Shown one piece after another: positions 12,244 through 27,627 of a stretch of 64,000 nt of DNA (positions are counted from its first letter, which is position 1; each line of letters opens with the position of its first letter). The notes under the pieces are model-generated. The model was not told where the DNA came from, searched no databases, and saw nothing but the letters and a program-made list of their open reading frames with translations. The position numbers and the translations under genes were made by a program. The stretch covers positions 108,356-172,355 of the forward strand of contig JAUNHC010000006.1 in NCBI GenBank assembly GCA_030524175.1. The letters run 5' to 3'. Source of the DNA: Eubacteriales bacterium. GTDB lineage: Bacteria > Bacillota > Clostridia > Lachnospirales > Lachnospiraceae.

Positions 12244-12328
12244 CATACTTTATCCTCTATAGGTATGACAGTTTTTCACTGAATGATATCACCGTTACAT
12301 AAACAAACGTCTTATTTCGTTGGAAAAG

Positions 12329-12357
12329 CACGAAAAGCACGTCCCGGGCATAAACTA
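12329..12357 (+). promoter_or_regulatory. Candidate sigma-K/sigma-E type promoter of sigK
   Basis: GCATAAACTA (12348-12357) fits the mother-cell -10 pattern gCATAnnnTA. An AC at 12330-12331 lies 17 bp upstream, as expected for the sigma-K -35. It starts about 28 bp before the translation start. This suggests autoregulation by sigma-K; a good sigma-E -35 is not evident. Confidence 0.45.
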
Positions 12358-12384
12358 TATAGAAATCCCCTTTGAGGTGAAGAT

Positions 12385-12759
12385 TTGAAGACGTTCTTGA
12401 AACCTTTGACATTAGCCGAGGAAAAAACCTATCTTCAACGTTACCAGGGGGGCGACTTAGAAGCAAAGAATATCCTTATCGAACGTAACCTCCGTCTTGT
12501 GGCCCATGTGGTAAAAAAATACCAGGGCACTGACGAAGATTTGGATGATTTGATTTCCATCGGGACCATTGGACTGATCAAGGCAATTTCAACCTTTGAT
12601 GCAAATAAAGCCACAAGGCTGTCCACATATGCTGCCCGGTGTATTGATAATGCTATAGTTACCCAATGGCTCACAAGGTACATAAACTACTTTTTCACAT
12701 ACCATATCTTAAGGATATATCATCAGAAATGGTGGTGCCGGAACACTACACCACTATAA
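12385..12759 (+). CDS. sigK: Sporulation sigma factor sigma-K, N-terminal segment (interrupted by skin element)
   Basis: The N-terminal half of sigma-K, the late mother-cell RNA polymerase sigma factor. Residues 1-89 carry region 2: NLRLVAHVVKKY, DLISIGTIGLIKAISTFD and TRLSTYAARCIDN. At codon 90 (position 12652) the sequence turns into unrelated DNA and stops at 12759. The start is TTG at 12385, just after GAGGTGA; an in-frame TGA at 12373-12375 rules out a longer N terminus. There is therefore no inhibitory pro-sequence such as Bacillus subtilis pro-sigma-K has; Clostridioides difficile also lacks it. The rest of the gene lies at 21050-21411. In vegetative cells only this non-functional stub would be made. 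Confidence 0.93.
   Translation: MKTFLKPLTLAEEKTYLQRYQGGDLEAKNILIERNLRLVAHVVKKYQGTDEDLDDLISIGTIGLIKAISTFDANKATRLSTYAARCIDNAIVTQWLTRYINYFFTYHILRIYHQKWWCRNTTPL
12649..12652 (+). other. Left attachment core of the skin element
   Basis: AATG here (context TGATAATGCTATAG) matches AATG at 21046-21049 (context ATAGCAAATGAG). Joining upstream sequence through this AATG to AGCTTCTG at 21050 reads CIDN-ELLMMLR in frame, the normal sigma-K sequence. TGCTAT just inside this end and ATAGCA just inside the other form a short inverted repeat. Confidence 0.88.
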
Positions 12760-12770
12760 TTCTTAACCAA

Positions 12771-12800
12771 AAACCGGGACCTCCTCAGAGTTCCCGGTTT
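12771..12800 (-). terminator. Terminator of the skin-borne transporter operon
   Basis: The stem AAACCGGGA/TTCCCGGTTT is followed on the minus strand by TTTTT. It lies about 30 bp after the last cargo gene and insulates it from sigK, which is read in the opposite direction. Confidence 0.75.
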
Positions 12801-12833
12801 ATTGGATCAATTCAATATTTACTTATTTGAATA

Positions 12834-13325
12834 TCAGATATCACCCATACCTTCAAAGCCGTCCGTACCAAGCTCATCTACAGGCGTATCAGTATCTACA
12901 GGTTCTTCCTCAGGTTCCTCTACAACCGTCTGGACAAACTCAGAAAGATAAGCCTCCTCCGGGAGGTCTGCCAGAAGTGCAGGCATATTTAAAATGATAC
13001 CGTCCATATTTTGGGGAAGTTTCACCGCAAGTTCACGTGTCGTGGGTTCATCCCCTTTGTTTTCCGTAATCTCAACAGTCATTTTAAAGTTTGCGCCCAT
13101 CCAGGATGCCATGCCTCGCTCATCCGCTTTGAGCTTGGCGGCTCTCTCTTCTTTTACATAAACATCGATACGGTATGGAGTAGTATAGGTTTTTCCCTCA
13201 TACTCCGTTTCCACATTGTCGAAATAAACTGTATGGCCTCTGCCGATCACCATCATAGCAGCGGCGATCAACAGAAGGACAAGAACTGCCAGAACTCTGA
13301 TCAGGATTGTTTTTTTCTTACTCAT
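12834..13325 (-). CDS. Small membrane-anchored protein of the skin transporter operon
   Basis: A 163-residue protein. Its Lys-rich start and one hydrophobic segment (ILIRVLAVLVLLLIAAAMMVI, residues about 6-26) would anchor a beta-rich extracytoplasmic domain of about 100 residues, followed by an acidic tail (EEPEEEPVDTDTP). The start at 13325 is chosen because AAGGAGG lies 9 bp upstream; it overlaps the stop of the permease gene. I do not recognise a function. Similar small proteins accompany DUF3798-type transporters (possibly the group labelled DUF6672), so an accessory role in the transporter is inferred from position only. Confidence 0.75.
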   Translation of the reverse strand: MSKKKTILIRVLAVLVLLLIAAAMMVIGRGHTVYFDNVETEYEGKTYTTPYRIDVYVKEERAAKLKADERGMASWMGANFKMTVEITENKGDEPTTRELAVKLPQNMDGIILNMPALLADLPEEAYLSEFVQTVVEEPEEEPVDTDTPVDELGTDGFEGMGDI

Positions 13326-14454
13326 CTCCCTCATCCTCCTTCTGTGCTTCCTTCAGACCCTGTCCTACTCTGCTCTTTATCCTGCGCTTTTTGGTCTCAT
13401 ACATGGTGAGGGCAACTGTGATAACACCGTAGGATACAAATACACGGAAATACTCGCCGATCATGGAATCGCCTGTGATCTTCGTACCTGTAGAAGGCGC
13501 AACGATAAACATAAGATGAAACAGAATTACGCCAAGAAATACATTCTTGATGGATGCACGGTCTACGGAAGCACCGCCAATCAACAGAGCCGCTATACAG
13601 AACATACCAATCTGTGAATGAGCGGTATAGGTAGGCAGATTTCCCATATTCTGGATGTAAATGACCATACCGAAGCCTGCAAGCACTGTAGAAATAACGA
13701 TGGAAATAATACGTGTCCTGTCTACATTGATACCTGCGTCCCGTGCAACATCCATATCCTGGCCCACAGCCCTCATATCCTGGCCCAGCTTCGTTTTCCT
13801 GAACCACACAATGAACAGACAGAGTACACCGATAATAATAAAGGTAAGGACCGGAATCTTAACACCCTTTATGGTAACGCTCATCAGGTTATCAAGACAC
13901 TGCCGCATATTCAAAAGACTTACCGTATTCCGGATGCCGTAGCCTCTTGGAAGCCTGATGCTTGAATGCTTGATCGGGATGATAGATCCCATCAAATACA
14001 AAACAATAAGCTGATAGATACCATTGATAAAGAAGCTGATGATATAACTGGTGATCATCTCACGCCCCTTTGCCATATTCAATATCTTTCCGCAGAAAAT
14101 ACCAAGCACTACTGAAATCGGTATGGAAATGATCATAGCAAGGATAACGCCGGGTATTCCGTAAATCTGCCAGTCAGCCACGAAAATAAGGCCGATCTCA
14201 CCTGCCATAGCTCCCAGAGTCATACCAAAGTTCAGTCCCATTCCGGCCATAATGGGGATCAGCAAGCATAGAATGAGGAAAGTATTTCTTCCCATACGAG
14301 TCATAATCTCATTTAACAGATAGCTTGGAGAAAATCCGGATACCGGAATACATACAGCACAGATTATGATAAACATGATCGGTACAGGATTATCGGACAA
14401 AAATCTCCGCAGTTTTTTTCCAAAACTAACTTGTGTCGTCGTATTATTTTTCAT
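13318..14454 (-). CDS. ABC transporter permease, simple-sugar/nucleoside type (second)
   Basis: A 378-residue permease of the branched-chain/ribose (BPD_transp_2) superfamily with about ten membrane segments. It includes GMGLNFGMTLGAMAGEIGLIF and the conserved cytoplasmic loop KTKLGQDMRAVGQDMDVARD followed by AGINVDR. Its gene starts 4 bp inside the preceding permease, so the pair is translationally coupled and probably forms a heterodimeric channel. With the two-domain ATPase and the DUF3798 protein it makes a complete importer inside the skin element. The substrate is unknown. Confidence 0.88.
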   Translation of the reverse strand: MKNNTTTQVSFGKKLRRFLSDNPVPIMFIIICAVCIPVSGFSPSYLLNEIMTRMGRNTFLILCLLIPIMAGMGLNFGMTLGAMAGEIGLIFVADWQIYGIPGVILAMIISIPISVVLGIFCGKILNMAKGREMITSYIISFFINGIYQLIVLYLMGSIIPIKHSSIRLPRGYGIRNTVSLLNMRQCLDNLMSVTIKGVKIPVLTFIIIGVLCLFIVWFRKTKLGQDMRAVGQDMDVARDAGINVDRTRIISIVISTVLAGFGMVIYIQNMGNLPTYTAHSQIGMFCIAALLIGGASVDRASIKNVFLGVILFHLMFIVAPSTGTKITGDSMIGEYFRVFVSYGVITVALTMYETKKRRIKSRVGQGLKEAQKEDEGDE

Positions 14455-15524
14455 TTCGAGCCCTCCGTCCTTCTGGTCAAAGCATACAGAATCATACCGT
14501 TGGAAACAATGATTCGGATAACTTCGCTCACGTCCATATGAATGATAGAGTTCATAACAGTAGGGGTCATGGTTACAATACCCTGGAACAGGAAGGTCCC
14601 AATGATCACATTGGGGATGGATGCCTTATTTACGGAAGCACCGCCGATAAGGATTGCAGATACCGCCGGAAGGGCCATATAAAATGGTGCCATATAAATC
14701 TGTACGAACCCAAAGCCCTGCTCATAAACAAGAATACCTATAGCCGCCAGCCATGTAGACATGATTACGGAAATCATACGCATTTTATCTACGTTTACGC
14801 CTGCCGCCTTTGCAAATGTGGGATTTGAACCGGCAGCCGTCATGGCTGTACCTGTCTTAGTGTGGAAAAATGCCCACACTGCCACAGCCAGCACAGCAAA
14901 AAACAGAAGGTTGCCTACAGGGATGGAAAAGCTTCCGATGTCAATTTTCAGGAAATTTGACAGCACCTGTGCATAATAGCCTTCAAGAGAAATAGTAGTA
15001 CGTAAGCCTTTCCCGGACAGTCCCCAAACCATATTGGGAGCATGGAAAGGAAGCAGGATCCACATCATACACATAAAGGATACAGCCGAAAAGCCTACAT
15101 AGGTAGCGATCATCATCTCGCCGCCTTTAATCTTATTTAAAAGCCAGCCGTAGCCGCTTCCCAGAACAAGCGCAAATGGTGTGGCAAGAACAATGGCCAC
15201 GAAGAAGCTTAAGCCTCCCGTAAACCCAAGCTCGATGGACAACGTTGCGCCCAAAAGCCCGGAAATAATACCAAGAGGCAGACCGAAGTTCAATCCGCAG
15301 CCTGACTGGACCATTGGCACCATAGCCAGAACCAGAATGGCATTCCAGCCAAAACGGTTAATTACATTTGTTAATTGTGTGAAAATATTTGCTCCTACAA
15401 AAGGAGACGCAATAAAGAGCAGCAGAAGGAAACCGGCAATAATCAGTCTCGGCAGGCCGAAGCTTTCCATTAAGCCCCGAATGCGTCCGCCTGCTGTCTT
15501 CTCTTCAGAAGTTTTAGCGTTCAT
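14451..15524 (-). CDS. ABC transporter permease, simple-sugar/nucleoside type (first)
   Basis: A 357-residue permease of the same superfamily as its neighbour, with about nine or ten membrane segments. Matching landmarks are QSGCGLNFGLPLGIISG and TKTGTAMTAAGSNPTFAKAA followed by GVNVDKMR. It starts 10 bp after the ATPase gene and overlaps the next permease by 4 bp. The shared landmarks between the two permeases suggest an old duplication. Confidence 0.88.
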   Translation of the reverse strand: MNAKTSEEKTAGGRIRGLMESFGLPRLIIAGFLLLLFIASPFVGANIFTQLTNVINRFGWNAILVLAMVPMVQSGCGLNFGLPLGIISGLLGATLSIELGFTGGLSFFVAIVLATPFALVLGSGYGWLLNKIKGGEMMIATYVGFSAVSFMCMMWILLPFHAPNMVWGLSGKGLRTTISLEGYYAQVLSNFLKIDIGSFSIPVGNLLFFAVLAVAVWAFFHTKTGTAMTAAGSNPTFAKAAGVNVDKMRMISVIMSTWLAAIGILVYEQGFGFVQIYMAPFYMALPAVSAILIGGASVNKASIPNVIIGTFLFQGIVTMTPTVMNSIIHMDVSEVIRIIVSNGMILYALTRRTEGSK

Positions 15525-15534
15525 TTTATCCTCC

Positions 15535-17127
15535 TTATTTAACCTGGCTGATCATCAGCATACCAAACTTTTCTGATGACTCAGCAGCAGGAAGTATTCC
15601 GGCAACCTTACCGCCTGATACAATTGCAATCCTGTCACAGGTCTGTCTCAGTTCTTCCAGTTCAGACGAGATCACCACCACCGTAGCGCCGTTCTCCCGG
15701 TTGAATTTTTTGATGGCCTCCAGTACCAGGCTCTTAGCGCCTACGTCAATACCACGGGTAGGCTCTGATACGAACAGCAGCTTCGGTTCCATGGCAAAGG
15801 CTTTTGCCAGGCAGATTTTCTGCTGGTTTCCGCCGGAAAGCTCTCTGGCCTTCTGTTTGGAGCTTGTGCATTTGATCATAAAGCTTTCTATGTACTTTTC
15901 CGTAACATCATGGATGGCTTTTTCGTCTCTCCACTTAATAAGACCGCCTAAATAATTCTTCAGATACTTATTCTGCACCTGCATGGCCGGGAATGCAATA
16001 TTCCATTCCAGTGTCTCGTCAAGAAGCAGACCTACGCTTCTTCTGTCCTCGGAAACAAAGGCAATAGAGGAATCCAGGCACTTTCTTGGGTTGTTCAGGG
16101 GAATCTCCTGCCCGTTAAAGGTGATCGTTCCGCCTGCATCGTACAGCCCCATGATGCCGTTAGGGATTCCAAGCTTCCCTTGTCCTGCCAGACCGCCGAT
16201 ACCCAGGATTTCTCCTTCTTTAATATCAAGATCCACATTCCGCACTGTCTCGCCGGGCATATCAACCCACAGCTTACGGACTGTCATGATATTAGGCGCA
16301 TCTGTCCTTATTTTTGCTTCTTTATTTGCAGCAGCTGAACCCACGTCACGGCCAACCATCCATTTGGTGATTTCCTCCACATTGGTTTCTTTGGATTCAA
16401 CATCTTTGACAACATAACCGTCACGCATAACAAGAACACGGTTGCACACAGACAAGATTTCATGCAAACGGTGTGTGATGAAAACAACGGAAATCCCTTT
16501 TGCCGACATGTTGCGGATAGATTCCAGCAAAGCGTCCGCTTCTTTTTCTGTCAAAACGGCTGTCGGCTCATCCAGAATCAACAGTTTCAAATTCTCTTTG
16601 CTAAGCTCTCTGGCGATTTCAGTAAACTGCTTATGCCCTACAGGCATACTATTGATGGGCATGTCCGCATCAATCTGAAAGCCCATCTTGTCAATAGCCT
16701 CTGCTGCGGTTTCCCCCATCTGGCCGCGGTTCAGCGTATCCAGACGATCACCGAACACTTCTGAAAGTACGTTTTTCTTCTTCTGCTCTCTGTTGAGCAC
16801 GATATTTTCTGTTGCGGTAAATCCCGGAATCAGCGAAAATTCCTGATGAACCATGCCGACCCCTGCCGCAAGAGCGTCAAAAGGCGTATTAAACTGAACC
16901 TTTTCTCCATTGATCAGGACATCACCTTCATACCCTCCGGTTTCTCTGATCACATCCATACCAAAAAGAATCTTCATCAGGGTACTTTTACCGGCTCCAT
17001 TCTCACCTACAAGACCAAGGACTTCTCCCTCTTCCAGCTTGAAATTGATGTCTGACAGTACCTGATTTTCGAAGAAACTTTTTTTAACGTTTTTCATCTC
17101 CAATAACGGAGCTTCGTTATTCTTCAT
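15535..17127 (-). CDS. Two-domain ABC transporter ATPase, sugar/nucleoside type
   Basis: A 530-residue duplicated ATPase like RbsA/MglA/YufO. Domain 1 has Walker A GENGAGKSTLMK, Walker B LLILDEPTAVL and a degenerate signature (ARELSKENLK). Domain 2 has a degenerate Walker A (GGLAGQGKLG, with no Ser/Thr after Lys), the signature LSGGNQQKICLAKAF and Walker B LLFVSEPTRGID. This asymmetry is normal for the class. It energises the two permeases downstream. It is separated from the binding-protein gene by about 380 bp that holds two repeat copies and a hairpin. Confidence 0.92.
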   Translation of the reverse strand: MKNNEAPLLEMKNVKKSFFENQVLSDINFKLEEGEVLGLVGENGAGKSTLMKILFGMDVIRETGGYEGDVLINGEKVQFNTPFDALAAGVGMVHQEFSLIPGFTATENIVLNREQKKKNVLSEVFGDRLDTLNRGQMGETAAEAIDKMGFQIDADMPINSMPVGHKQFTEIARELSKENLKLLILDEPTAVLTEKEADALLESIRNMSAKGISVVFITHRLHEILSVCNRVLVMRDGYVVKDVESKETNVEEITKWMVGRDVGSAAANKEAKIRTDAPNIMTVRKLWVDMPGETVRNVDLDIKEGEILGIGGLAGQGKLGIPNGIMGLYDAGGTITFNGQEIPLNNPRKCLDSSIAFVSEDRRSVGLLLDETLEWNIAFPAMQVQNKYLKNYLGGLIKWRDEKAIHDVTEKYIESFMIKCTSSKQKARELSGGNQQKICLAKAFAMEPKLLFVSEPTRGIDVGAKSLVLEAIKKFNRENGATVVVISSELEELRQTCDRIAIVSGGKVAGILPAAESSEKFGMLMISQVK

Positions 17128-17162
17128 AATTTTTCATTCCTTGTCCAAGAATCTTATTTTAC

Positions 17163-17246
17163 TATGAAAGTCCCGTACAGCAGCCATGAGACGGCGCATG
17201 CTTGCATGCAGAGTCTTATGGATATCGGACGGGCTAACCCGTATGA
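17163..17246. repeat. 84-bp repeat, copy A (inside skin element)
   Basis: It begins TATGAAAGTCCCGTACAGCA and ends GCTAACCCGTATGA. Its middle holds a hairpin (GCGCATGC/GCATGC with flanking GAGAC/GTCTT). It matches copy B (17357-17440) closely over all 84 bp and copy C (53656-53713) over the first 58 bp. No convincing ORF lies in it. Confidence 0.8.
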
Positions 17247-17356
17247 GCAAGGAGGCCGACAGGCCGGATCGCGAATACGGGTGGCGATTGCGGGAACGCG
17301 TAAGCGCGGAGCAATCGGCTTTCATGATTGGTGATGTCTGCGTCAGCAGACATATC

Positions 17357-17440
17357 TACGAAAGTCCCGTACGGCAGCCGTGAGACGGCGCATGCCTGCA
17401 TGCAGCGTCTCATGGATGTCGGACGGGCTAACCCATATGA
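17357..17440. repeat. 84-bp repeat, copy B (inside skin element)
   Basis: A direct repeat of copy A, 110 bp downstream, beginning TACGAAAGTCCCGTACGGCA. The stem GAGACGGCGCATGC with GCATGCAGCGTCTC is nearly perfect here. Between A and B are further small hairpins, such as ATGTCTGC/GCAGACAT (17334-17352). Both copies sit between the binding-protein and ATPase genes of the skin cargo operon. Confidence 0.8.
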
Positions 17441-17454
17441 TTTCCGAAAAGAAC

Positions 17455-17476
17455 GGGGAGGAAAATTTTCCTCCCC
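17455..17476 (-). terminator. Perfect GC-rich hairpin after the skin binding-protein gene
   Basis: A 22-bp perfect palindrome (GGGGAGGAAAA and its complement) lies 35 bp after the DUF3798-type gene, followed on the minus strand by TTCTTTT. It is probably a partial terminator that keeps binding-protein expression above that of the downstream genes. Confidence 0.65.
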
Positions 17477-17510
17477 ATCTTGCTTGAATCATGACTAAAC
17501 TGAGAACAGT

Positions 17511-18716
17511 TTATTTAACGGTGAAGTATTTTTCTGGAACCTCAACCTCTGTAGAACCCATGAAATGTCCGGGATCACCCATAATATAGGTATCCTGGTA
17601 GATCAAGAATGTGTTGTCGGATTTCACGCCTGTCTCAGCGTTTGTATAGTTGGAACCATTCCAGTTTGCTTCGCCTGAGAAAACGGTGTATGCTTCAGAA
17701 ACATCATCGATTTCATCAATTTCGCTCTCGCCGTTGAGAACGTTCATAGCGTGCTGTGCAAGACCTGCAGATGTAACATATCCGTAGGAGTATGCCCATG
17801 TTCCGAAGTGGTCAGCACCGCCTTTTTCACAGATGGTTTTTTCAACTTTTGCAAGAATCTTGGAGAAATCGCCTGCTTCTTCAGTAAGGTCGATTCCTAA
17901 TGCTCCCGGGTATCCCATCAGCGGAGACGGAAGATCGGCTTCAATAAAATATCCGCCGTATTCAAGAAGCTGTTTCAGCAACGGCTCTGTATGAGCATCG
18001 TTGGTACAGAAGTAAGCAGCGTTCTCTCCGTATTTCTCAACCCATTCCGGAACCTTCTCAAGAATGTAAGCCTGTGCGCCTGCAACGCCAACGTCAGATG
18101 TCGGGTCCGGAGCAGTCTCAAGTACGAATTTCATACCAAACTCTTCACATGCAGCCTTCATGATGGCAACACGGCGGCTCATTGTTTCATAAGCCATATG
18201 TCTTGGGAAAGAAATATGTACAAATGTGTCACATCCCAGCTCATGAGCTGTTCTGATGATCAGATATCCACGTGCAACGAAGTCATTGTTTACAACCAAG
18301 TCAGCAGCGCTTCCGATTTCCGGAAGGTCCTCGTGGGACTCGCCTGCGATACAAAGGATGTCAGGACGTCTCTCTTTAATCTGACGGAAAGCTTCTGTTG
18401 TTCCGGGAACTGCCTGGTTTACAACGATTGCCTTCATATCAGGATCGTCAGACAGGTTTACGATTGTCTGAATAGTTGTTTCCAGCTCTTCTGTAAAGTT
18501 GTCAGGATAGATGGCGAGCTTAACCATATCTTCCCCATACATTTTCTGGAATTCCTCCGCACCGCGGCGGTCATCTTCTGACTGGGAAACAGAACCGGTT
18601 ACAATACCGATCTTATAATCCGCTTCCTCAGCTTCAGCTTTTACGCTTATGCTTGGCACTACTAACATAGAAACTGCCATAGCTAAGCTTAAGAGTGTTG
18701 CCATTACCTTCTTCAT
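17511..18716 (-). CDS. DUF3798-type substrate-binding protein of the skin transporter
   Basis: A 401-residue exported protein. The signal peptide (MKKVMATLLSLAMAVSMLVV) ends near SVKAEA, without a lipobox cysteine. The mature domain is a periplasmic-binding fold of the BMP/LacI type: YKIGIVTGSVSQSEDDRRGA, VNQAVPGTTEAFRQI, DILCIAGE and AYFCTNDAHTEPLLKQLLE. I recognise it as a DUF3798-like protein, whose ligand is not established. The start at 18716 is preferred because TTGGAGGAG lies about 8 bp upstream. It leads the skin cargo operon behind a promoter with a palindromic operator. Confidence 0.85.
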   Translation of the reverse strand: MKKVMATLLSLAMAVSMLVVPSISVKAEAEEADYKIGIVTGSVSQSEDDRRGAEEFQKMYGEDMVKLAIYPDNFTEELETTIQTIVNLSDDPDMKAIVVNQAVPGTTEAFRQIKERRPDILCIAGESHEDLPEIGSAADLVVNNDFVARGYLIIRTAHELGCDTFVHISFPRHMAYETMSRRVAIMKAACEEFGMKFVLETAPDPTSDVGVAGAQAYILEKVPEWVEKYGENAAYFCTNDAHTEPLLKQLLEYGGYFIEADLPSPLMGYPGALGIDLTEEAGDFSKILAKVEKTICEKGGADHFGTWAYSYGYVTSAGLAQHAMNVLNGESEIDEIDDVSEAYTVFSGEANWNGSNYTNAETGVKSDNTFLIYQDTYIMGDPGHFMGSTEVEVPEKYFTVK

Positions 18717-18786
18717 TGCTCTCTTCTCCTCCAATTTTCTTAATAAAATTAGAAATTGCTGTACTACACAATTCCTTGTTCCTTTG

Positions 18787-18815
18787 ATAATACATTACTT
18801 TAATGTATTAGTCAA
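18787..18815 (-). promoter_or_regulatory. Promoter of the skin cargo operon with palindromic operator
   Basis: On the minus strand TTGACT (18810-18815) and TATTAT (18787-18792) are 17 bp apart. The spacer is almost entirely a perfect 9-3-9 inverted repeat, AATACATTA/TAATGTATT (18789-18809). A dimeric repressor bound here would block RNA polymerase. No regulator gene lies in the element, so it must be chromosomal. Confidence 0.75.
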
Positions 18816-18989
18816 TAGCATATGCACAATATCAAGTACATTTTTTGCTTTTTTTTGTATAAAACAACAAAATGCAACATGACAAAATATTGGTTTCTTT
18901 AGGTTTTTTATATAAATTCAGTCTAATATATCCAGTTTTTGTGACTTTTGTCAAATACATTCAGGGTTGCCCTGTTATGTCCATTTGTG

Positions 18990-19160
18990 TTAATTCTTCT
19001 TTTCTATATTCAGGTCATTAAGCAGCCGTAGTTTGTCTTCCCTGCTGTATGGAAGTGAATCCAGATAACTGATAACAGCATCCGCCTGTATGGCGGCCAC
19101 ACGATTTGCCAGTTCTTTCTTGTCTTTCTCAGATTTTGGAAAATGAACCACAACGTTCAT
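18990..19160 (-). CDS. 56-residue skin-encoded protein, candidate recombination directionality factor
   Basis: A small ORF missed by length cut-offs. It starts at ATG 19160 with AGAGGAG 8 bp upstream and stops at TAA 18990. The product begins MNVVVHFPKSEKDKKELANR and ends LLNDLNIEKKN; it is charged and looks helical after a short beta-like start. It is divergent from the recombinase, 153 bp away. In C. difficile a small skin-encoded protein (CD1234) acts as the directionality factor that limits sigK excision to the mother cell. I infer the same job here from size and position, not from recognised homology. Two copies of CATAAAATA, similar to mother-cell -10 boxes, lie upstream (19188-19196 and 19207-19215), but no matching -35 is clear. 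Confidence 0.65.
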   Translation of the reverse strand: MNVVVHFPKSEKDKKELANRVAAIQADAVISYLDSLPYSREDKLRLLNDLNIEKKN

Positions 19161-19252
19161 ATGATTTGCTCCTCTGTCGTCTCCATTTATTTTATGGGAG
19201 CATATTTATTTTATGTCATCCTCTTCACTTCCTTACACATATCCTGCATCAT

Positions 19253-19282
19253 TTGAACAAAAATGAAATATTACTTTATATA
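19253..19282 (+). promoter_or_regulatory. Candidate vegetative promoter of the skin recombinase
   Basis: TTGAAC (19253-19258) and TTATAT (19276-19281) are 17 bp apart; TATATA one base on fits an 18-bp gap. If real, the recombinase is not mother-cell specific, and control would rest on an accessory factor. Confidence 0.4.
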
Positions 19283-19313
19283 ACACATCATACAAGGAGG
19301 CAGTCTGTAACTT

Positions 19314-21050
19314 ATGGAAGATACTGATAAGTTCATTGCCGTCTATTCCCGTAAATCCAAATTCACAGGGAAAGGAGAAAGCATTGAAAACCAGATCGGT
19401 ATGTGCAGGAAATATATCGAAACCCATCATGGTCCTGAATCTCTGCCTCGTATACGAGTGTATGAAGATGAGGGATTCTCCGGCGGTACGCTCAATCGTC
19501 CCCAATTTAAATCCATGATCCAGGATGCCAAGGACGGAAAAATATGTGAGATCATTGTTTACCGTCTTGACAGGATAAGCCGAAATATCGGTGATTTCTC
19601 CAGACTCATTGAAGAGCTGCAGAAAATGGATATCACCTTTGTCTCCATCACTGAAAATTTTGAAACAGAATCTCCCATGGGGCGGGCCATGATGTATATC
19701 GCTTCTGTATTCTCCCAGCTGGAACGTGAGACCATCGCCGAACGTATCCGCGACAATATGCACGAGCTGGCTAAAACCGGCCGCTGGCTGGGAGGCACCA
19801 CTCCCACAGGATACGGATCAGAAAGTGTTTCCAATGTAACCATAGACGGAAAGAAAAAAAAGGCCTGTAGGCTGAAACTCCTCCCCGAAGAAGCAAAAGT
19901 AGTAGAGCTGATCTACGAAAAGTTCCTGGAAACAGAATCCTTAAGCCAGACAGAAACTTATCTGCTTCTGAACGGATACAAGACAAAAAACAGCAAACCC
20001 TATTCCCGCTTTTCTATTAAAAACATTCTGTCCAATCCAGTATACATGATAGCCGATGAGGATGCTTATCACTACCTCCTTGAAAGTGAGGCAGCCTTGT
20101 TCTCTGAAAAAGAAAGCTTCAACGGCAAGTATGGTATTATGGCCTACAACCGTACCATACAAAAAACTGGAAAAACGAATAAACTTCGGGAGAAAAAAGA
20201 ATGGATCGTTTCCGTTGGCAGACATCCCGGGATCATAGCCGGAAAGACCTGGATCAAAGTACAAAAATTGCTGGAGCGTAACCGCTCAAAAGCATATCCT
20301 TCAAGCAGAAGCAATGTTGCCTTATTATCCGGACTGCTCTGCTGCGGCAGCTGCGGTGACCATATGCGCCCCAAAATTGCCCACGGCACTTATCCCGGCG
20401 GCACTCCTAATTATTACTATCTCTGTACCACAAAAGAAAAAAGCAAGAGAAAGCTCTGCAGCATGAAGAATCCTGACGGTAATCTTCTTGACCAAATGGT
20501 AATTGAAGAAATCAAAAAGCTTACCAGTGACAGACATTTATTCATAAAGCTTTTGGAACATGGAAGGGGAAATCTGTGTGAAGAACATACGGATTATTCG
20601 GAAAATACTGCCCGGCTAAACCAACAGATCACAGAAAACCTGGAAAAAATACAGGCATTGACTGCCGCTCTTTCCACAGCTGCATGCAGCTCTGCTGAAA
20701 AATATATTGTAAAAGAAATTGAAGACTTGGACAAGAAAACGCAGGATTTAAAAGATCAATTAAAACAATTAGAAAAGTTAAATTCCAGGCATGCTCAGTA
20801 TGATATGGAATTTACCGTGATCAAAAACATGGTACACTCCTTCGGCAGTACCATTGATCAGATGAACCTTTTCCAAAAACGTACTGCACTACGTTCCATT
20901 GTAAAAAAGATCATCTGGGATGGTAAAAACGCCCATATTTATCTTTTCACCACTGACGAAGAGTATGAATTTCTGGAAAATCTTCCTCTCATCTCAGAGA
21001 CGGGAACAGATTTCCAGAATAAAGCGCCGTCAGGGGAGGATAGCAAATGA
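19314..21050 (+). CDS. spoIVCA: Large serine recombinase of the skin element (SpoIVCA type)
   Basis: A 578-residue site-specific recombinase that should excise the skin element. The resolvase-type catalytic domain has the nucleophile Ser15 in YSRKS, DEGFSGGTLNRPQF, YRLDRISRN, and MGRAMMYIASVFSQLERE followed by TIAERIRDN. A recombinase domain with GGTTPTGYG and NPVYMIADEDAYHY follows. A zinc ribbon uses Cys344, Cys347, Cys371 and Cys382, and a coiled coil spans about residues 430-490. AAGGAGG lies 13 bp before the ATG. The stop codon TGA (21048-21050) is part of the right attachment core AATGA. On excision the circle joins this frame to the left end, replacing the stop by 59 further codons, up to TGA at 12828. 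Confidence 0.93.
   Translation: MEDTDKFIAVYSRKSKFTGKGESIENQIGMCRKYIETHHGPESLPRIRVYEDEGFSGGTLNRPQFKSMIQDAKDGKICEIIVYRLDRISRNIGDFSRLIEELQKMDITFVSITENFETESPMGRAMMYIASVFSQLERETIAERIRDNMHELAKTGRWLGGTTPTGYGSESVSNVTIDGKKKKACRLKLLPEEAKVVELIYEKFLETESLSQTETYLLLNGYKTKNSKPYSRFSIKNILSNPVYMIADEDAYHYLLESEAALFSEKESFNGKYGIMAYNRTIQKTGKTNKLREKKEWIVSVGRHPGIIAGKTWIKVQKLLERNRSKAYPSSRSNVALLSGLLCCGSCGDHMRPKIAHGTYPGGTPNYYYLCTTKEKSKRKLCSMKNPDGNLLDQMVIEEIKKLTSDRHLFIKLLEHGRGNLCEEHTDYSENTARLNQQITENLEKIQALTAALSTAACSSAEKYIVKEIEDLDKKTQDLKDQLKQLEKLNSRHAQYDMEFTVIKNMVHSFGSTIDQMNLFQKRTALRSIVKKIIWDGKNAHIYLFTTDEEYEFLENLPLISETGTDFQNKAPSGEDSK
21046..21049 (+). other. Right attachment core of the skin element
   Basis: The second AATG, in context GATAGCAAATGAGCTTCTG. 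In B. subtilis the skin junctions share a 5-bp AATGA core. Here the right end has AATGA and the left end AATGC, so the exact strand-exchange bases within AATG cannot be fixed from one sequence. Confidence 0.88.
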
Positions 21051-21411
21051 GCTTCTGATGATGCTTCGTTCCAAGAAGAAACACTCCAAAGAGGTTTCTC
21101 TGTATGAACCGATCGGTACAGATAAAGAAGGGAATGAAATCAACCTTTTAGATGTGATTGAAAGCCCGCTGGTGGATGTGGTGGAAGATTATTCCACAAA
21201 GGAGGACTTGAAGCTGATACTCCAGTCCCTGGAAACCACCTTGACACCTAAGGAGTTTCAGGTGATCTGTTACCGTTACGGGCTGTTCGGGCAAAAGGAA
21301 CAGACACAGCGAGAGATTGCACAGAAATTGTCTATCAGCCGTTCCTATGTGTCCCGCATCGAAAAGAATGCCCTTCTCAAACTTCGCAGGCTTTTCCCGG
21401 ATGTAACGTAA
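21050..21411 (+). CDS. sigK: Sporulation sigma factor sigma-K, C-terminal segment
   Basis: The remainder of sigma-K. From the junction it reads ELLMMLRSKKKHSKEVSLYE, then PIGTDKEGNEINLLDVIESP (region 3), and a region 4 helix-turn-helix near the end (TPKEFQVICYRYGLFGQKEQ, QREIAQKLSISRSYVSRIEK). There is no start codon of its own, and the upstream continuation of the frame is antisense-like noise within the recombinase. With the 5' segment it gives 209 residues, the usual size of mature sigma-K. Expression therefore requires excision of the skin element. Confidence 0.93.
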
Positions 21412-21450
21412 CCGCCGCCGACAGGTTTTCTCTGCCGGCGGCGGTGTTTT
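21412..21450 (+). terminator. Rho-independent terminator of sigK
   Basis: The GC-rich stem CCGCCGCC/GGCGGCGG, plus further pairing in the loop, is followed by GTTTT and starts right after the TAA stop. It separates sigK from the convergent kinase gene. Confidence 0.85.
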
Positions 21451-21469
21451 GTGGACATATACTCGATTT

Positions 21470-22957
21470 TCATTTTACAACCGGCAGAAACATACTGATT
21501 TCATATGTATTTTCCATCTCCTCCACAGTGCATCTTCCATTCATTTTTCCCATCATACGTTTTATATTCAGTACCCCTAAATTTGTGCTTTCCACTCCGT
21601 TGCTGCTGGCTTTCACTTTATTTCTGATCCTTAGATACATACAGCTTTCTTCCATTTTCATTTTTTCCGGTCCGGTATAAAGGCCTGCCATAATTTCCAC
21701 TTTCTCAGATTCATCGGCATATTTCAGCAGGTTAGAAGCGATATTATCCAGAATCCTGTCCATATATTCTGACACAACAGAAATTTTTGCATCCGGCCAG
21801 GAAATGCTGCATTTCACAGTAAAACCCTGGCTCTCCAGAAACATCATCAAGTCGGAAAGTCTTTCTTCCAGCACAGAACGTATGCTGTGAGGCTGCTCAG
21901 GAATAATTTTGTCGTCCCGGGAAATATAGAACTGCTTAAAGAGCTGGTCTGACATACTCTTTATCTGGTTAGCCTTCAGTGCTGTTTTTTCCAGATATTG
22001 TTCCATCTCCTTCTCATCCTTATACTTCTTTTTTGACAATAGTTCTGCATATAAAAGCAGTGAAGTAAGAGGTGTCCGCAGGTCATGGGCCATACCGGTG
22101 ACAAGACTGTTGTTTGCCTGAAGGAGTTCTTCTTTTGCCTTCATATTTTCATCAAGGCTCATTCGCATCTGATTAAGGCCAAAGGCCAATGACGAAAGCT
22201 CATCCATCCCTTGCACCGTAATCTCTTTGTCCATTCCTCCCCCTTCCAGGATTTTCACTTCATTCTCCAATTGACGGACATATTTAAGCTTTTTCTGCAA
22301 AAATGCAAGGAAGATCAGCAGAAATAGGAGGGCGGAAAGAGCCAGTTCTATATAGTGCGCAATGAGATAAAACTGATATTCAAACAACCCCAGCAGATAG
22401 ACTTGACCTGACCCGTCCGAAAATTCCATATCGTACTGTTTTGCCTCATTTCCATACATCTCTTCTATCATATAAGCAGATTCCGCAGTAACGACACCAG
22501 ACTCATCATCAACCGTACTGTCCTCAGCCATTCCCCCATCATCAGCCCCGGCTTCTTCTGCAGCAGCGTCATCAATGAGACCTGCTGTCTCAGATGAAGT
22601 ATCATAAACCGTTTCCCCAGCCCCAATACTCACTTCATCTGTGTCATCAGCATAATAAGAGGTATATGTCATCCGGTCATCCATAAAAACCGTATAGTAC
22701 ACCAGTATATGCTTCCGGGTCCACTTATTCAGGCCCTCTACATCATCTGACGCAAGCTTGTTGTCTGTAATATATTTTTGAAGCTTTGCCGCGGTTCTGT
22801 CAGTGGCCCGTTCTATATAGACAGATACCTGGAAGTAAGTGTCCAGCAGCCGGGCCACTGCCTGGTTAGACACATAATAAAAAAGGATAGATGCAGCCAT
22901 TGCTGCTATCAGCACCAGGCTGCATTTCATTTTTAAACTATACCGTCTCTTAGACAA
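21470..22957 (-). CDS. Sensor histidine kinase with atypical ATP-binding end
   Basis: A 495-residue membrane kinase. It has two membrane segments (about 12-30 and 200-220), an extracytoplasmic domain with a very acidic, low-complexity stretch (about residues 104-154), a HAMP-like region, and the phospho-acceptor box GMAHDLRTPLTSLLLYAELL with His291. The N box is recognisable (RILDNIASNLLKYA), but no D-x-G-x-G box follows: the equivalent region reads RIRNKVKASSNGVESTNLGV. ATP binding may therefore be unusual. It overlaps the response-regulator gene by 8 bp. The ABC genes upstream in the same direction are the probable targets. Confidence 0.87.
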   Translation of the reverse strand: MSKRRYSLKMKCSLVLIAAMAASILFYYVSNQAVARLLDTYFQVSVYIERATDRTAAKLQKYITDNKLASDDVEGLNKWTRKHILVYYTVFMDDRMTYTSYYADDTDEVSIGAGETVYDTSSETAGLIDDAAAEEAGADDGGMAEDSTVDDESGVVTAESAYMIEEMYGNEAKQYDMEFSDGSGQVYLLGLFEYQFYLIAHYIELALSALLFLLIFLAFLQKKLKYVRQLENEVKILEGGGMDKEITVQGMDELSSLAFGLNQMRMSLDENMKAKEELLQANNSLVTGMAHDLRTPLTSLLLYAELLSKKKYKDEKEMEQYLEKTALKANQIKSMSDQLFKQFYISRDDKIIPEQPHSIRSVLEERLSDLMMFLESQGFTVKCSISWPDAKISVVSEYMDRILDNIASNLLKYADESEKVEIMAGLYTGPEKMKMEESCMYLRIRNKVKASSNGVESTNLGVLNIKRMMGKMNGRCTVEEMENTYEISMFLPVVK

Positions 22958-23645
22958 ACATGTACCCCTTTCCCCACACTGTACGGATGTGCTGCGGTTC
23001 CTGCGGGTCTTTCTCTATTTTCACCCTGAGTTTACGGATATGTACCATAACTGTACTGTTTGAGGAATAGAAATACGGTTCCTTCCATATGCTTTCATAT
23101 AAATTCTGGGCAGAAAATATTTTTGACGGGTGTTCCATCATAAGGAGCAATATTTTGTATTCCAAATCGGATAGATCCACTGTCACGCCCCCTGCCTGGA
23201 CCTCGTTAAATTTTCTGCTGATGCGGATTCCGCCGGCTTCCAGATATTCATTGCTGTCCGGTTCCGCCTTTCCGCTGTACACCCGGTAACGGCGCAGCAG
23301 TGCTTTTACCCTCCCCAAAAGCTCAGAATAGGAAAAAGGTTTTCCCAGATAGTCATCTCCTCCTGCCATCAGACCGATAAGCTTATCTGATTCCTGAGCC
23401 TTTGCTGTGAGGAACAGAACGGGCACATACGATATTTTGCGTATTTCTTCACAAGTCTTAAGTCCTGAAATTCCGGGCATCATCACATCAAGGATCACCA
23501 GGTCTGTTTCCGGGGTCAAAAGTGACAGACCCTCACTCCCATTCTCCGCCTCTGTCACTGTATATTGTTCACTTTCCAGCAGGATCCTTACGCCCTCCCG
23601 GATATCTGCATCGTCCTCTATAATCAATATTTTCGCCTTACTCAT
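22950..23645 (-). CDS. OmpR-family response regulator
   Basis: A 231-residue two-domain regulator. The receiver domain has acidic residues DDAD, phospho-acceptor Asp53 in LVILDVMMPG, the Thr in FLTAK and the Lys in GKPFS. The C-terminal winged helix ends VHIRKLRVKIEKDPQEPQHI followed by RTVWGKGYMFV. It overlaps the kinase gene and lies 129 bp after the ABC permease gene on the same strand. It probably controls this ABC operon; direct repeats of TTAAG upstream of the ATPase gene (27690-27735) are candidate binding sites. Confidence 0.92.
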   Translation of the reverse strand: MSKAKILIIEDDADIREGVRILLESEQYTVTEAENGSEGLSLLTPETDLVILDVMMPGISGLKTCEEIRKISYVPVLFLTAKAQESDKLIGLMAGGDDYLGKPFSYSELLGRVKALLRRYRVYSGKAEPDSNEYLEAGGIRISRKFNEVQAGGVTVDLSDLEYKILLLMMEHPSKIFSAQNLYESIWKEPYFYSSNSTVMVHIRKLRVKIEKDPQEPQHIRTVWGKGYMFV

Positions 23646-23774
23646 GCTTCCCTCCAGCTTCCTGCCGGTTACTGTTCATTTGGTATCCGGCAGACTCTTC
23701 CCAATACATAAAGATTAGGTACGCTTCTCTTTTACCACTATATCACAGATCCGGCACAATGATAAGTGTATCTT

Positions 23775-25160
23775 CTATGCCTTCATAGCCTCCAGTGCAG
23801 AGATTTTCACAGCTTTATTGGCCGGATAATACCCTGCGGCCACACCTATGAATATGGAAAATACAAGGGCAAAGACTGCAAGCCATACGGGAATAATGGA
23901 AATTGTAGTTCCGGTAGACGCTACCATCCCCATTGCGCCCATGCCAAAGGTATCCTCCCCTGTGCCGCCGCCCGCTGCTGCTGAGAAATAATTCATTGCC
24001 CAGGAGGCTCCGTAACTTAGTGCGATTCCCACGGTGCCGCCCATAAATCCAATAGTAGCCGCTTCCATAAGAAATTCCTTCCTGATATCTCCCAGAAAGC
24101 ATCCCAGGGCTTTCATGATCCCAATTTCCCTTGTTCTCTCCGCGATAGACATGATCATAGTATTTGCAATCCCTATAGCCGCCACAATCAGCGAAATGGC
24201 GCCAAGCCCGCCCAACATCAACTGCTTTTGCTGTGCATCCTTTTCCATGGGCTTACGGATACTCTCCATGGAAAATGTCTGGAACCCCATCATCTTAATT
24301 ATTTCCTCTGTCTGCACCACATCCTTCATGTCCTTTACACTTACAAGAATCTGGGAGTATTCCTTTTGCTTTTTCCTTCCATCTGCTCTTTGAAGCTGCT
24401 TCTGAAGCTTTTCCAGATCCTTCATCCTCATGACCAGACCGGACATGGTTTCCTCACCAATATCATAATCCTCATTAATGCGGCCTGCCACTGTCAGCTT
24501 TTGAATCTCTTTATACTCAGCAGTTCCGGCTGCGGGCTGCTGTCCTCCATTGTCTGAAGGCTTCTTCTCTTTCTTTTGGGATATGGATACTTCCGCCCCA
24601 AGGGCCTTGAAAAACGGTTTTGCATTTTCATCCATCCAATAATCCACCATGTTTTTACCTTCCGGCCGCTTGCTGTCTGTGAATTCAAAGGCAAAATTTT
24701 TTCCCGACAGGACTTCAAAAGGGCGCTTATCCGGGAACTTCCCCTCAAGAAGCCGGTAGCCTATTTTTTCAAAATCCGTCTCCGAAATTCCTATAATGGT
24801 GGTGCTCCCTCCTACAAACCTGTTCTTTTCTCCTGTTGTCAGCACAAATTCTCCCAGATCCAGACTTCTCTTTGCTATCACTGTGGTGACATTGGGAAGG
24901 GCCTGTATCTCCTTCACTGCTTTTTTGTCCAGAAGGGTTTTCTGGGCATTGTTTACCGGAGACGGCGATACGGTGATCCTTGTAAGATTTCCCATCTGTG
25001 CCAGCATCTCGTTCTGTGCCTCTCTCATGCCTATTCCAAGGGAAACCATGACCACAATGGCGCAGCATCCGATGATCACGCCGGAAACAGTGAGCATGGT
25101 GCGTCCCTTTCTGCGGTAAAGATTGCGGAGACACATTCGCATAATATCCAAAAATGACAT
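23775..25160 (-). CDS. MacB/FtsX-type ABC transporter permease
   Basis: A 461-residue permease with the MacB layout. One N-terminal membrane segment (MLTVSGVIIGCCAIVVMVSL) precedes a large extracytoplasmic domain of about 250 residues. Three membrane segments close the protein, including LGGLGAISLIVAAIGIANTM and the AERTREIGIMKALGC loop. This class works mechanically in efflux, lipoprotein handling or peptide resistance, not in import. It overlaps the stop of the accessory-protein gene by 1 bp, so ATPase, accessory protein and permease are coupled. The substrate is unknown. Confidence 0.92.
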   Translation of the reverse strand: MSFLDIMRMCLRNLYRRKGRTMLTVSGVIIGCCAIVVMVSLGIGMREAQNEMLAQMGNLTRITVSPSPVNNAQKTLLDKKAVKEIQALPNVTTVIAKRSLDLGEFVLTTGEKNRFVGGSTTIIGISETDFEKIGYRLLEGKFPDKRPFEVLSGKNFAFEFTDSKRPEGKNMVDYWMDENAKPFFKALGAEVSISQKKEKKPSDNGGQQPAAGTAEYKEIQKLTVAGRINEDYDIGEETMSGLVMRMKDLEKLQKQLQRADGRKKQKEYSQILVSVKDMKDVVQTEEIIKMMGFQTFSMESIRKPMEKDAQQKQLMLGGLGAISLIVAAIGIANTMIMSIAERTREIGIMKALGCFLGDIRKEFLMEAATIGFMGGTVGIALSYGASWAMNYFSAAAGGGTGEDTFGMGAMGMVASTGTTISIIPVWLAVFALVFSIFIGVAAGYYPANKAVKISALEAMKA

Positions 25161-26932
25161 TATAAAATCTCCTCTTCTTCCAGCTTGATTTTTTTCTGTT
25201 TTCTGCGGCGTAGAACCACAGCAATGATAACTATAAGCACTGCCGCTGCTGCGCCATAAATCATCGTCTTTCCAGAGAAAAATCCTGCCTTATTTACCTC
25301 CATTTCTTCCTCCATTCCGTCCATACTCATAGCATAATCGGACATGTCTGCTTCTCCTTCTGTAACTGCCAGCTCTACCTCCCTCTCCGCAGTTTTCTCA
25401 TTGCCCTCGGCATCTTCATAGGTTACTGTGATTTTTGCCTTCTGGTTTCCTGTCTCATGAGGTGTCACGAAGAAATCAATGGTTCCGCTGGTGCCTGCCT
25501 CCACATTTCCCATGAATTTATATGTCTCTTCACTTGACATATCTGTTTCCAGTCGGGCCTCCATGTTGTAGATCGTTGTCTTCCCTTTATTCACATAAGG
25601 AATGGAAATGGTTGATTCTTCATTTGCTGTTGTCTCATTTTCCTTTTGGATATCTCCGATACTGAAGCGGTCAGGCTGTGTGAAACGGATGGACAGCTTC
25701 TCTGTGGAAGTAGTCTGTACTCTCTCATCTTTTTTCAGATATTCATATTTAAAATTGATTTCCAGTTTCGCATTCTCCGCCTGCCCCTGAGGAAGAACCT
25801 TAAGCTGCATCTCTTTTGCAAAAGTTTCCCGGGGACTCATCCGTTCAACATATGTGGTGTTTGAAGAATCTTCGATGGACAAGGCCTCACCTGCCTCCAC
25901 AGTCATCACAAGATTCTCCACTGCTGTCTGCTTATTCGTGTTCAAAAAAACAAGCTTCAGGGTAAATTCCTCACCTGCTTTTACATCTTTGCCATAATCA
26001 TACTGGCTGATGATGATATTGGGTGTCATAGGATCGATCTGCTTTTTGCTGCCTTCGCCGCCGTCGCTTCCCCCGCTGTATCCGCCTCCGTATGTACCTC
26101 CGGCTTCCTCATTTCCTTCCGGTTGATCTTCCGGATTTCCTTTGTCTCCGGAAACCGGCAGCAGAATGTTTTTTTCCAGCTGTCCTGATTTCACCTGTCC
26201 CTCTTCCTCATAACGGTAAGTCATCTTCACTGTCATCGTCAACGTAGGGATTCCATTCTGTAAGCTGCCGGAAATCAATTTAACCTTTACCTTCCTTTCC
26301 TGGCCCGGCTCAATGTCTTTCACATCAAAAGTGTCTGTCTTCTGGTCTGCATTCATGGAAATTCCCTGGGGCAGCCCGAACTGAAGCTTAATATTTTCAA
26401 GCTTTGTTTTCTTATATGTATTTTTGACAAAAACTACCACCGGAAACTCTTCTCCTGCTTTAATGGCCTTTTTCATCTCATCCCTGGAAATGATGATACC
26501 GCTTCCGTCTATGGGCAGGTCATCCGGATCGGAAGGCTCCGGTCCCGGAACCGGTGTATCCTCCGGGGTGGGCTTAGGTGCCTCTGTCACCGGCGGTTCA
26601 GTCTCCTGGCTGTTCGCCCCTGGTTTTTCTGTACCTGCCTCACCTGACGGTAATCTCCCTGAATCCCATCCGCCTGTTTCTGTCCCGTCTGTCACAGGAG
26701 GCAGATTTCCTTCTTCTGGTTCATCAGAAGCGGACTGCTTTCCCCCTGGCTGCCCGCTGCTGTCCTGAAAATCTAAAAAAACAGAGTTGGCTGTTTCCAA
26801 TTCTTCCTGTATCTGTGCAGGCTCTCCCCAAGCACTGTCTGAAGCCAAAACATTTGCAGCTGAAGTATTCCCGGCCAGCCCCGCACAGAGCAGTGCAAGA
26901 AGTAATTTATTTTTTATATTCTGAATGTTCAT
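25160..26932 (-). CDS. Exported, membrane-anchored CARDB-like accessory protein of the ABC system
   Basis: A 590-residue protein. It has a signal peptide, a Pro/Glu/Thr-rich low-complexity spacer (about residues 50-145), and repeated immunoglobulin-like modules resembling CARDB/COG1361 domains. Each module has a phrase such as IIISRDEMKKAIKAGEEFPV or IIISQYDYGKDVKAGEEFTL. A second Gly/Ser-rich linker (GGTYGGGYSGGSDGGEGS) separates the modules. A C-terminal membrane helix (MIYGAAAAVLIVIIAVVLRR) and a basic tail anchor it. It sits between ATPase and permease, overlapping both by 1-4 bp, so it is probably an extracellular part of the transporter. The function is inferred from context. Confidence 0.8.
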   Translation of the reverse strand: MNIQNIKNKLLLALLCAGLAGNTSAANVLASDSAWGEPAQIQEELETANSVFLDFQDSSGQPGGKQSASDEPEEGNLPPVTDGTETGGWDSGRLPSGEAGTEKPGANSQETEPPVTEAPKPTPEDTPVPGPEPSDPDDLPIDGSGIIISRDEMKKAIKAGEEFPVVVFVKNTYKKTKLENIKLQFGLPQGISMNADQKTDTFDVKDIEPGQERKVKVKLISGSLQNGIPTLTMTVKMTYRYEEEGQVKSGQLEKNILLPVSGDKGNPEDQPEGNEEAGGTYGGGYSGGSDGGEGSKKQIDPMTPNIIISQYDYGKDVKAGEEFTLKLVFLNTNKQTAVENLVMTVEAGEALSIEDSSNTTYVERMSPRETFAKEMQLKVLPQGQAENAKLEINFKYEYLKKDERVQTTSTEKLSIRFTQPDRFSIGDIQKENETTANEESTISIPYVNKGKTTIYNMEARLETDMSSEETYKFMGNVEAGTSGTIDFFVTPHETGNQKAKITVTYEDAEGNEKTAEREVELAVTEGEADMSDYAMSMDGMEEEMEVNKAGFFSGKTMIYGAAAAVLIVIIAVVLRRRKQKKIKLEEEEIL

Positions 26933-27627
26933 CGGCTTTCCTTTCTTTCATCTTTTACAATATTACCGTCGATCAATGTGAGAATCCTGTCTGCATAGGA
27001 TGCCATTTCCGGGTCATGTGTGACCAGAACGATGGTCTGGTTGTTTTTCCCGGCAATTTCCAACACCATCTCCATAATCTGAGATGTGGTTTTTGTATCC
27101 AGGTTTCCTGTAGGTTCATCTGCAAAAATAACCTCCGGGCTTACCGCAAAGGCTCTTGCTATCCCTACTCTCTGCTGCTGTCCTCCTGACATTTGGGATG
27201 GATAATGATGCAGCCTTTTTCCCAACCCTACCTTCTCCAGCAGACTGGCAGCCCGGGCCTCCCTGTCTTTTCGTCCATATCCCTGAAACATAAGGGGCAG
27301 AGCTGTATTTTCCAGTGCTGTCATATAAGGAAGCAGATTGTAAGCCTGGAATATAAATCCTATATGTTTTTGCCGGAAAGCAGCCATCTGGTTTTCCTGA
27401 AGCTTTGTGATATCAACCTTATTGATGATCACTTTCCCCTGGGTAGGCTTTTCCATCCCTGCAAGCTGATTGAGCAATGTACTCTTACCTGAGCCTGAAG
27501 TTCCGAAAATGCAGCAAATCTCCCCTTTTTGGATCTCCGCATTGATCCGGTCCAAGGCCACTACCTTTTCATTCCCTATTTTATATACCTTCCTCACATC
27601 GCTGATCTTTATCATAGTCTCCTGCAT
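26929..27627 (-). CDS. ABC transporter ATPase (LolD/MacB type)
   Basis: A 232-residue ATPase with Walker [14 protein letters not shown]-loop [15 protein letters not shown], signature [16 protein letters not shown], Walker [14 protein letters not shown] and switch His in LVTHD. The sequence is typical of ATPases paired with MacB/FtsX-like permeases. It is first in the operon ATPase, accessory protein, permease, then response regulator and kinase, all on the minus strand. Confidence 0.94.

Follow-up and report, generated by a model that had tools for sequence, protein, structure and literature searches.

Sporulation genes interrupted by an element with its own serine recombinase are known from Bacillus and Clostridioides difficile. 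In Bacillus subtilis the interrupted gene is sigK, and its skin element is removed by the serine recombinase SpoIVCA. According to the passages of PMC5025042, σK carries a pro-sequence in B. subtilis, where production of the recombinase is specific to the mother cell, whereas in C. difficile σK lacks a pro-sequence, the recombinase (CD1231) of the prophage-like, 19-gene skinCd element is broadly expressed, and a 72-aa recombination directionality factor (RDF; CD1234) is under the control of σE and SpoIIID. The gin element in gerE of Bacillus cereus ATCC10987 (GirC, GirX) has no phage genes and combines serine recombinases with a separate directionality factor (passages of PMC5595907), while yin in yabG and SP-beta in spsM are prophage-like and have serine recombinases with small RDFs or RDF candidates (passages of PMC10747680). 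Here we describe an 8.4-kb element which splits sigK in a Lachnospiraceae genome (5.95 Mb, 119 contigs, 90.7% complete); the stretch analysed, called the window below, comprises 64,000 nucleotides, bases 108356-172355 of contig C51.

The window locus resembles skinCd in its split sigK, its large serine recombinase and a σK without pro-sequence, but in place of the 19 genes of skinCd the element contains one probable host operon, the recombinase and a small open reading frame (ORF), the candidate RDF of 56 aa with a σE-like promoter, which is likened to the 72-aa protein of skinCd by description only. It shares with B. subtilis skin the position in sigK and the serine recombinase, and differs in leaving no room for a pro-sequence. 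With gin it has in common the interruption of a sporulation gene, the absence of phage genes and a serine recombinase accompanied by a separate, here putative, directionality factor, although gin has another target and three recombinase genes, and a captured metabolic operon does not appear in the passages of PMC5595907. The yin and SP-beta elements differ in target genes and in being prophage-like, and the passages of PMC10747680 give no RDF family common to elements. We consider it likely that the window contains a skin-like, non-phage sigK element which is excised by its own recombinase, and which consists of a minimal module with a host operon moved in. While sigK intervening elements as such are known, the combination of a sigK-targeted recombinase distant in the tree, a captured transport operon and a common small-protein family was not found in the open-licence literature; judged by titles and abstract openings, that literature also yielded no sigK elements from Lachnospiraceae or Lacrimispora hosts, nor any whose cargo includes a hydrogenase or an ABC transporter.

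The split sigK gene and its empty site

The 5' half of sigK (12385..12648, + strand) has a TTG start, 88 codons and sigma region 2 (Sigma70_r2, E 1.1e-16 in Pfam), and the 3' half (21046..21411, + strand) encodes sigma region 4 (Sigma70_r4, E 1.5e-14), with codons 89-209 at 21046-21408 and the stop codon extending to 21411. As stated in the original prediction, the halves lie about 8.4 kb apart and share AATG at the left junction (12649..12652, + strand, with the AA at 12649-12650 as presumed crossover dinucleotide) and at the start of the 3' half (21046-21049), giving a junction-to-junction spacing of 8,397 bp. Joining at AATG reproduced the predicted 630-nt in-frame gene of 209 residues, with CIDN-ELLMMLR across the joint, and removal of the element thus restores sigK exactly. 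The corresponding empty site is present in G077, the nearest of 64 genomes of the genus by sigK (88% protein identity), in which sigK is uninterrupted. Window positions 12300-12652 align to G077:C2:325718-326070 (91%) and 21046-21442 to G077:C2:326067-326463 (76%), the two alignments overlapping by exactly four bases, AATG; apart from some rearranged pieces, contig C2 shows broad colinearity with the contig of the window.

A second intact sigK, named beforehand as the observation that would speak against the prediction, was not found by protein and family searches of the 90.7% complete assembly: the joined σK protein matched the two halves and one σE-type gene (47%), and the region-2 family search gave 27 matches, the sigK N-half among them. 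The proposed match to the developmental skin elements is supported by the exact restoration of sigK, by the presence of a recombinase and by the absence of another intact copy from the assembly; excision in the mother cell is the part of this match argued by analogy with relatives and with the systems published for C. difficile and Bacillus. Both halves are under purifying selection, as the ratio of non-synonymous to synonymous substitution rates (ω) against four relatives was 0.03-0.08 where computable (the C-half against G077 had saturated synonymous sites), similar to the 0.04-0.09 between uninterrupted sigK genes. Unequal divergence of the two halves was dropped as a trait of the window, being present in 11/11 genus pairs compared.

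An in-frame stop codon at 12373-12375, 12 nt 5' of the TTG start, leaves no room for a pro-sequence, and the same start arrangement was seen in 8/8 relatives compared. Near-full-length sigK matches were present in 42/64 genus genomes (71-88% identity; G079 and G083 with one internal TAG), and in 34 of these 42 genes the open frame has at most 224 codons; for species in which sigK is uninterrupted and a pro-sequence would not fit, this raises the question of how the timing of σK is set. The gene is split in three of the 64 genomes (G000, G030 and G035), G081 has two sigK fragments on two contigs, the first of which spans the joint, G025 has a match of only 41%, and the other 17 have no sigK match at E 1e-30. 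The presence of both sigK forms in a single assembly (G049, loci L053 and L054) was considered as evidence of excision and rejected, as the shared tails are 97% identical, short of full identity, and this looks like two strains or copies.

The sigK-targeted recombinase and its attachment sites

The large serine recombinase expected at the right end is a 578-aa protein (19314..21050, + strand) whose TGA stop codon overlaps the right junction. It contains Resolvase, Recombinase and zinc ribbon domains (PF00239, PF07508 and PF13408, all above cut-offs), with only weak Pfam matches below cut-off for the C-terminal residues 396-507, where a coiled-coil motif would be expected, and its best solved relative by sequence is the TP901-1 integrase. 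Among the best 80 of 292 relatives from 84,980 named species genomes (53-59% identical), 72 have the sigK C-half, from the same codon, at most 500 nt from the recombinase end, with AATG as core in 57 and AACG in 15 of these loci, and hosts including Lachnospiraceae, Oscillospiraceae, Sporomusa and Holdemania. Relatives with an intact sigK and relatives with like elements, both of which the original prediction suggested looking for, were thus found. Of the remaining eight loci, L076, L077 and L099 stop at a contig edge, the first two with the right-arm motif, L122 has the sigK C-half 4.5 kb from the recombinase, and none was seen in L068 and L124. L062 and L102 have a sigK N-half in antisense orientation next to the recombinase, as would be expected of an inverted element. 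Related recombinases occur at the same sigK codon in Negativicutes and Erysipelotrichia, where the small protein described below was not seen in the available DNA.

When the junctions of the relatives were placed side by side, a right arm GAGCCGTTAGGTGAGGATAGCA, followed by AATGA, and a left arm AATGCTATCCTCACC..AACGGCTC were apparent, and the two arms mirror each other as inverted repeats about AA; the same central dinucleotide has been predicted for gin of B. cereus (passages of PMC5595907). In the window, the left attachment (att) arm at 12651..12672 (+ strand) resembles both the left arms of relatives and the inverted form of the right arm at 21024..21045 (+ strand), which was placed by comparison with the junctions of relatives. 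These arms, the two halves of attP, fit the symmetry imperfectly. A 15-base attP pattern was also used to scan viral contigs and was rejected, since the at least 120 stretches obtained are mostly chance by expectation. One viral contig has an attP-like palindrome between two convergent recombinase genes (L227:3560-3740), which is perhaps an unintegrated element. Extension of the recombinase frame on the excised circle was dismissed as a trait as well: it is 59 codons in the window, and ranges from 0 to 190 in the 13/16 complete elements where it could be computed.

A small protein and the predicted control of excision

Besides the recombinase, the element's own DNA contains one ORF with relatives found, a 56-aa small protein (18990..19160, - strand) which is a candidate RDF. 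A profile search starting from this ORF detected the family in 23/89 sources (the window and 88 loci). It is present in 16/16 complete sigK elements, i.e. those with both ends, down to one of only 2.65 kb, although these are not independent, as several are close relatives (Lacrimispora group). When 293 genomes of the class were searched with profile A2 (completeness of 90 requested), the small ORF was found in nine, own genome included; in the eight others a sigK half is found at a distance of 0.1 to 6.6 kb, with the ORF on the side of the element, and both sigK halves are present in three of them (one of the eight, G308, is the genome of locus L120 and therefore a duplicate). The predicted structure consists of two helices (mean predicted local distance difference test score, pLDDT, 82). 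Five elements (L035, L112, L121, L128 and L134) have the small ORF towards their left end, at a large distance from the recombinase, and in these the protein is extended at the N-terminus, possibly starting from a GTG or an ATG. This small-protein family has not been described previously.

The upstream regions of the small ORF contain a pattern resembling a σE promoter. In the window this is ATA-N15-CATAAAAT (19189..19214, - strand), starting 54 nt upstream of the ORF, and the pattern ATA-N15..17-CATAnnnT was found in 15/23 upstream regions (130 nt each), whereas 300 dinucleotide shuffles gave 0.34 on average and at most 3. In the class loci it was present in 7/8 (shuffle mean 0.09), or 6/7 without the duplicate, and in the missed locus, L339, it is upstream of the first of the two domain rows. 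A GGACA box, which we take to be SpoIIID-like after the B. subtilis consensus, lies in the spacer in 12/23 upstream regions with the full -10 and in 19/23 with a shorter -10, and spoIIID is encoded in the genome of the window. The promoter pattern agrees with the mapped σE promoter of C. difficile spoIIID, ATA-N16-CATATATA (passages of PMC3789822).

Co-occurrence and promoter pattern together make it likely that the 56-aa protein is the directionality factor of the element. In the mechanism that we propose, the recombinase (19314-21050) would be broadly expressed, as in C. difficile, and would recombine the two junctions across the central AA; σE and SpoIIID would direct synthesis of the small factor in the mother cell, and this factor would turn the recombinase to attL x attR. 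The 8.4-kb segment would then leave as a circle and sigK would be restored in frame in the cell that will lyse, while the forespore would keep the element. Many Clostridia may thus have in their sigK elements a very small developmental DNA switch, made up of a recombinase and one small protein. The small proteins are candidates for a shared family of directionality factors, against a literature in which the RDFs of the known elements modelled are called all different (passages of PMC10747680).

Several observations weigh against this proposal. The analysis is of the sequence of a single draft assembly (90.7% complete, 119 contigs), and the promoter pattern was drawn from the same first 23 loci in which it was counted. 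The box-containing form of that pattern occurs in only 2/8 class loci, one of them the duplicate, and the GGACA box of relatives is absent from the window promoter. As a control, the σE-like pattern was also found in 14/80 recombinase upstream regions. The 56-aa protein has no match in Pfam (best E 0.086), NCBIfam or PHROGs, a PDB search with its predicted model gave nothing at E <= 0.001, and the L092 copy of the small ORF is not within the sigK gap. Finally, in a looser σE scan, the region upstream of the window recombinase, AATATT-N16-CATACAAG, was joint top of 81 (12 of 14, together with L061), a score reached by about 1.2% of shuffles, so the window recombinase itself might be sporulation-controlled.

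These last findings bear on the alternative that the 56-aa protein is a repressor or another accessory, and that excision is confined to one cell type because the recombinase is expressed specifically in sporulation, as has been published for skin of B. subtilis; we regard this as possible if rather unlikely. The joint top score of the window recombinase fits this alternative, as does the distribution of the small ORF, which is found in 20/80 named loci and was not found in the available DNA of the other 60, none of which has both element ends while many reach 10 kb before the recombinase; the RDF assignment is also one made from sequence. It is harder to reconcile with the presence of the small ORF in every complete element, the 2.65-kb one included, and with the likeness of its promoter pattern to the mapped spoIIID promoter. 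In addition, TATAAT is present in 40/80 recombinase upstream regions, which suggests vegetative expression of many of these recombinases, and in many relatives a dyad like TATGTTAT..ATAACATA overlaps this box in an operator-like manner. A σE promoter before the recombinase was rejected as a family trait, as the mismatch scores of the 81 upstream regions, based on -35 and -10 consensus sequences, were spread about as those of shuffles.

It is less probable, and in our opinion unlikely, that the window contains a selfish integrative element or domesticated prophage remnant for which sigK is only the attachment site, with sporadic excision leaving most cells of the lineage without σK. Such an element would be consistent with the small number of split genes in the genus (3/64) and with the patchy recombinase tree, in which the window forms a lone long branch, its genus mates G035 and G030 fall into two subclades of a different clade with full support, and hosts of different families, e.g. 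Holdemania and a Lachnospiraceae record, carry near-identical recombinases. This patchiness indicates that sigK elements were probably acquired repeatedly, although the tree was made by a quick method and the placement of the long window branch is unsure. Viral contigs L320 and L322, which carry recombinase relatives directly before a sigK C-half, also fit a selfish element. The purifying selection still acting on both sigK halves and the sporulation-type promoter pattern often preceding the small ORF argue against it, as does the absence of phage structural genes among the seven window element proteins scanned with PHROGs, where only the recombinase and the ABC ATPase described below (ABC-transporter, unknown-function and SbcC-like families) gave matches. 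The window element is therefore skin-like and non-phage, and excision by its own recombinase under developmental control remains our preferred explanation.

Transporter operon and cargo of other sigK elements

The original prediction, which named neither the cargo genes nor the small ORF, described the element as smaller than the known skin elements and different in cargo, and both are correct, but its compactness is not unusual, as the 16 complete elements range from 2,654 bp (L097) to 14,480 bp (L035). Most of the window element is a block (12832..18943, - strand) with 87-91% DNA identity to G077:C2:274002-279851, outside sigK. The aligned block comprises a whole operon with its upstream region: genes for a DUF3798 substrate-binding-type protein (17511..18716, - strand), an ABC ATPase of the sugar-transporter type with two ATP-binding domains (15535..17127, - strand; nearest NCBIfam GguA, below cut-off), two ABC permeases (BPD_transp_2; 14451..15524 and 13318..14454, both - strand) and, as last gene, a 166-aa DUF6672 protein (12834..13334, - strand). 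Since the matching DNA in G077 lies outside sigK, about 46 kb before its uninterrupted copy, parsimony suggests that a host operon was probably captured by the element, rather than the reverse. With the operon moved in, the element's own DNA would be only 12653-12831 and 18944-21045, a module of about 2.3 kb with the recombinase and small ORF. That the operon in the element is an artefact of assembly, joining two places of the chromosome, is very improbable, for although G077 has the same operon some 46 kb away and the genome is a draft of 119 contigs, the operon is located deep within a 172-kb contig whose other parts are broadly colinear with G077, is flanked on both sides by DNA without match in the G077 stretch, and is represented in its own genome by one copy above family cut-off only.

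The DUF3798 family is present in 19/64 genus genomes, and the surroundings of the operon were viewed in five of the 18 others (G077, G101, G082, G002 and G081), in none of which sigK was beside it. Three of these, G101, G082 and G002, are without any sigK match at E 1e-30, so that G077 is the telling case for an operon apart from sigK. The DUF3798 protein was found in 15/17 genus genomes without a sigK match at this threshold vs 4/47 others, a pattern which may be a clade effect combined with low completeness. Between the ATPase and DUF3798 genes lies a dispersed repeat (17160..17442) absent from the G077 operon, which contains two 85-nt units (91% alike) and has 18 full or partial places in its own genome, own copy included. 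A terminator-like hairpin (AACCGGGA / TCCCGGTT; 12770..12801) is seen between the left arm and the cargo.

The smallest complete element, from Clostridium sp. HBUAS56010 (L097:9004-11658), contains the recombinase, the small ORF and a cytochrome-b5-like domain protein, and is close to a minimal module; empty site, minimal module and module with captured operon can be read as an evolutionary series. Host metabolic genes are cargo in several sigK elements, as Pfam searches identified melibiase, the small and large subunits of [NiFe]-hydrogenase and a maturation protease in one Lacrimispora-type element (L105), and HypF and HypD in another (L118), while L083, L095, L100 and L131 have the same cargo genes as judged by like-looking ORFs only. 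L100 belongs to Lacrimispora xylanisolvens DSM 3808, which like strain HBUAS56010 is culturable and has the module of recombinase and small ORF. Excision in Lacrimispora-type hosts would mean loss of hydrogenase, maturation and melibiase-type genes from the mother cell. In the window, excision during spore formation would likewise strip the transporter operon from the mother cell, so that the gene is repaired and the transporter is discarded in a dying cell. Speculatively, sigK elements in Clostridia could be vehicles for programmed somatic deletion, into which host metabolic operons moved because their loss from the mother cell only is useful when σK is switched on, with the forespore germline keeping them and the shared 55-75-aa factors under σE and SpoIIID directing the process; we think this quite doubtful.

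Downstream of the restored gene, a block at 21470-27627 separates sigK from the genes which directly follow sigK in G024, G028, G017 and G067. Its genes are tentatively named kinase/response-regulator-like and ABC-exporter-like from inspection of the ORFs.

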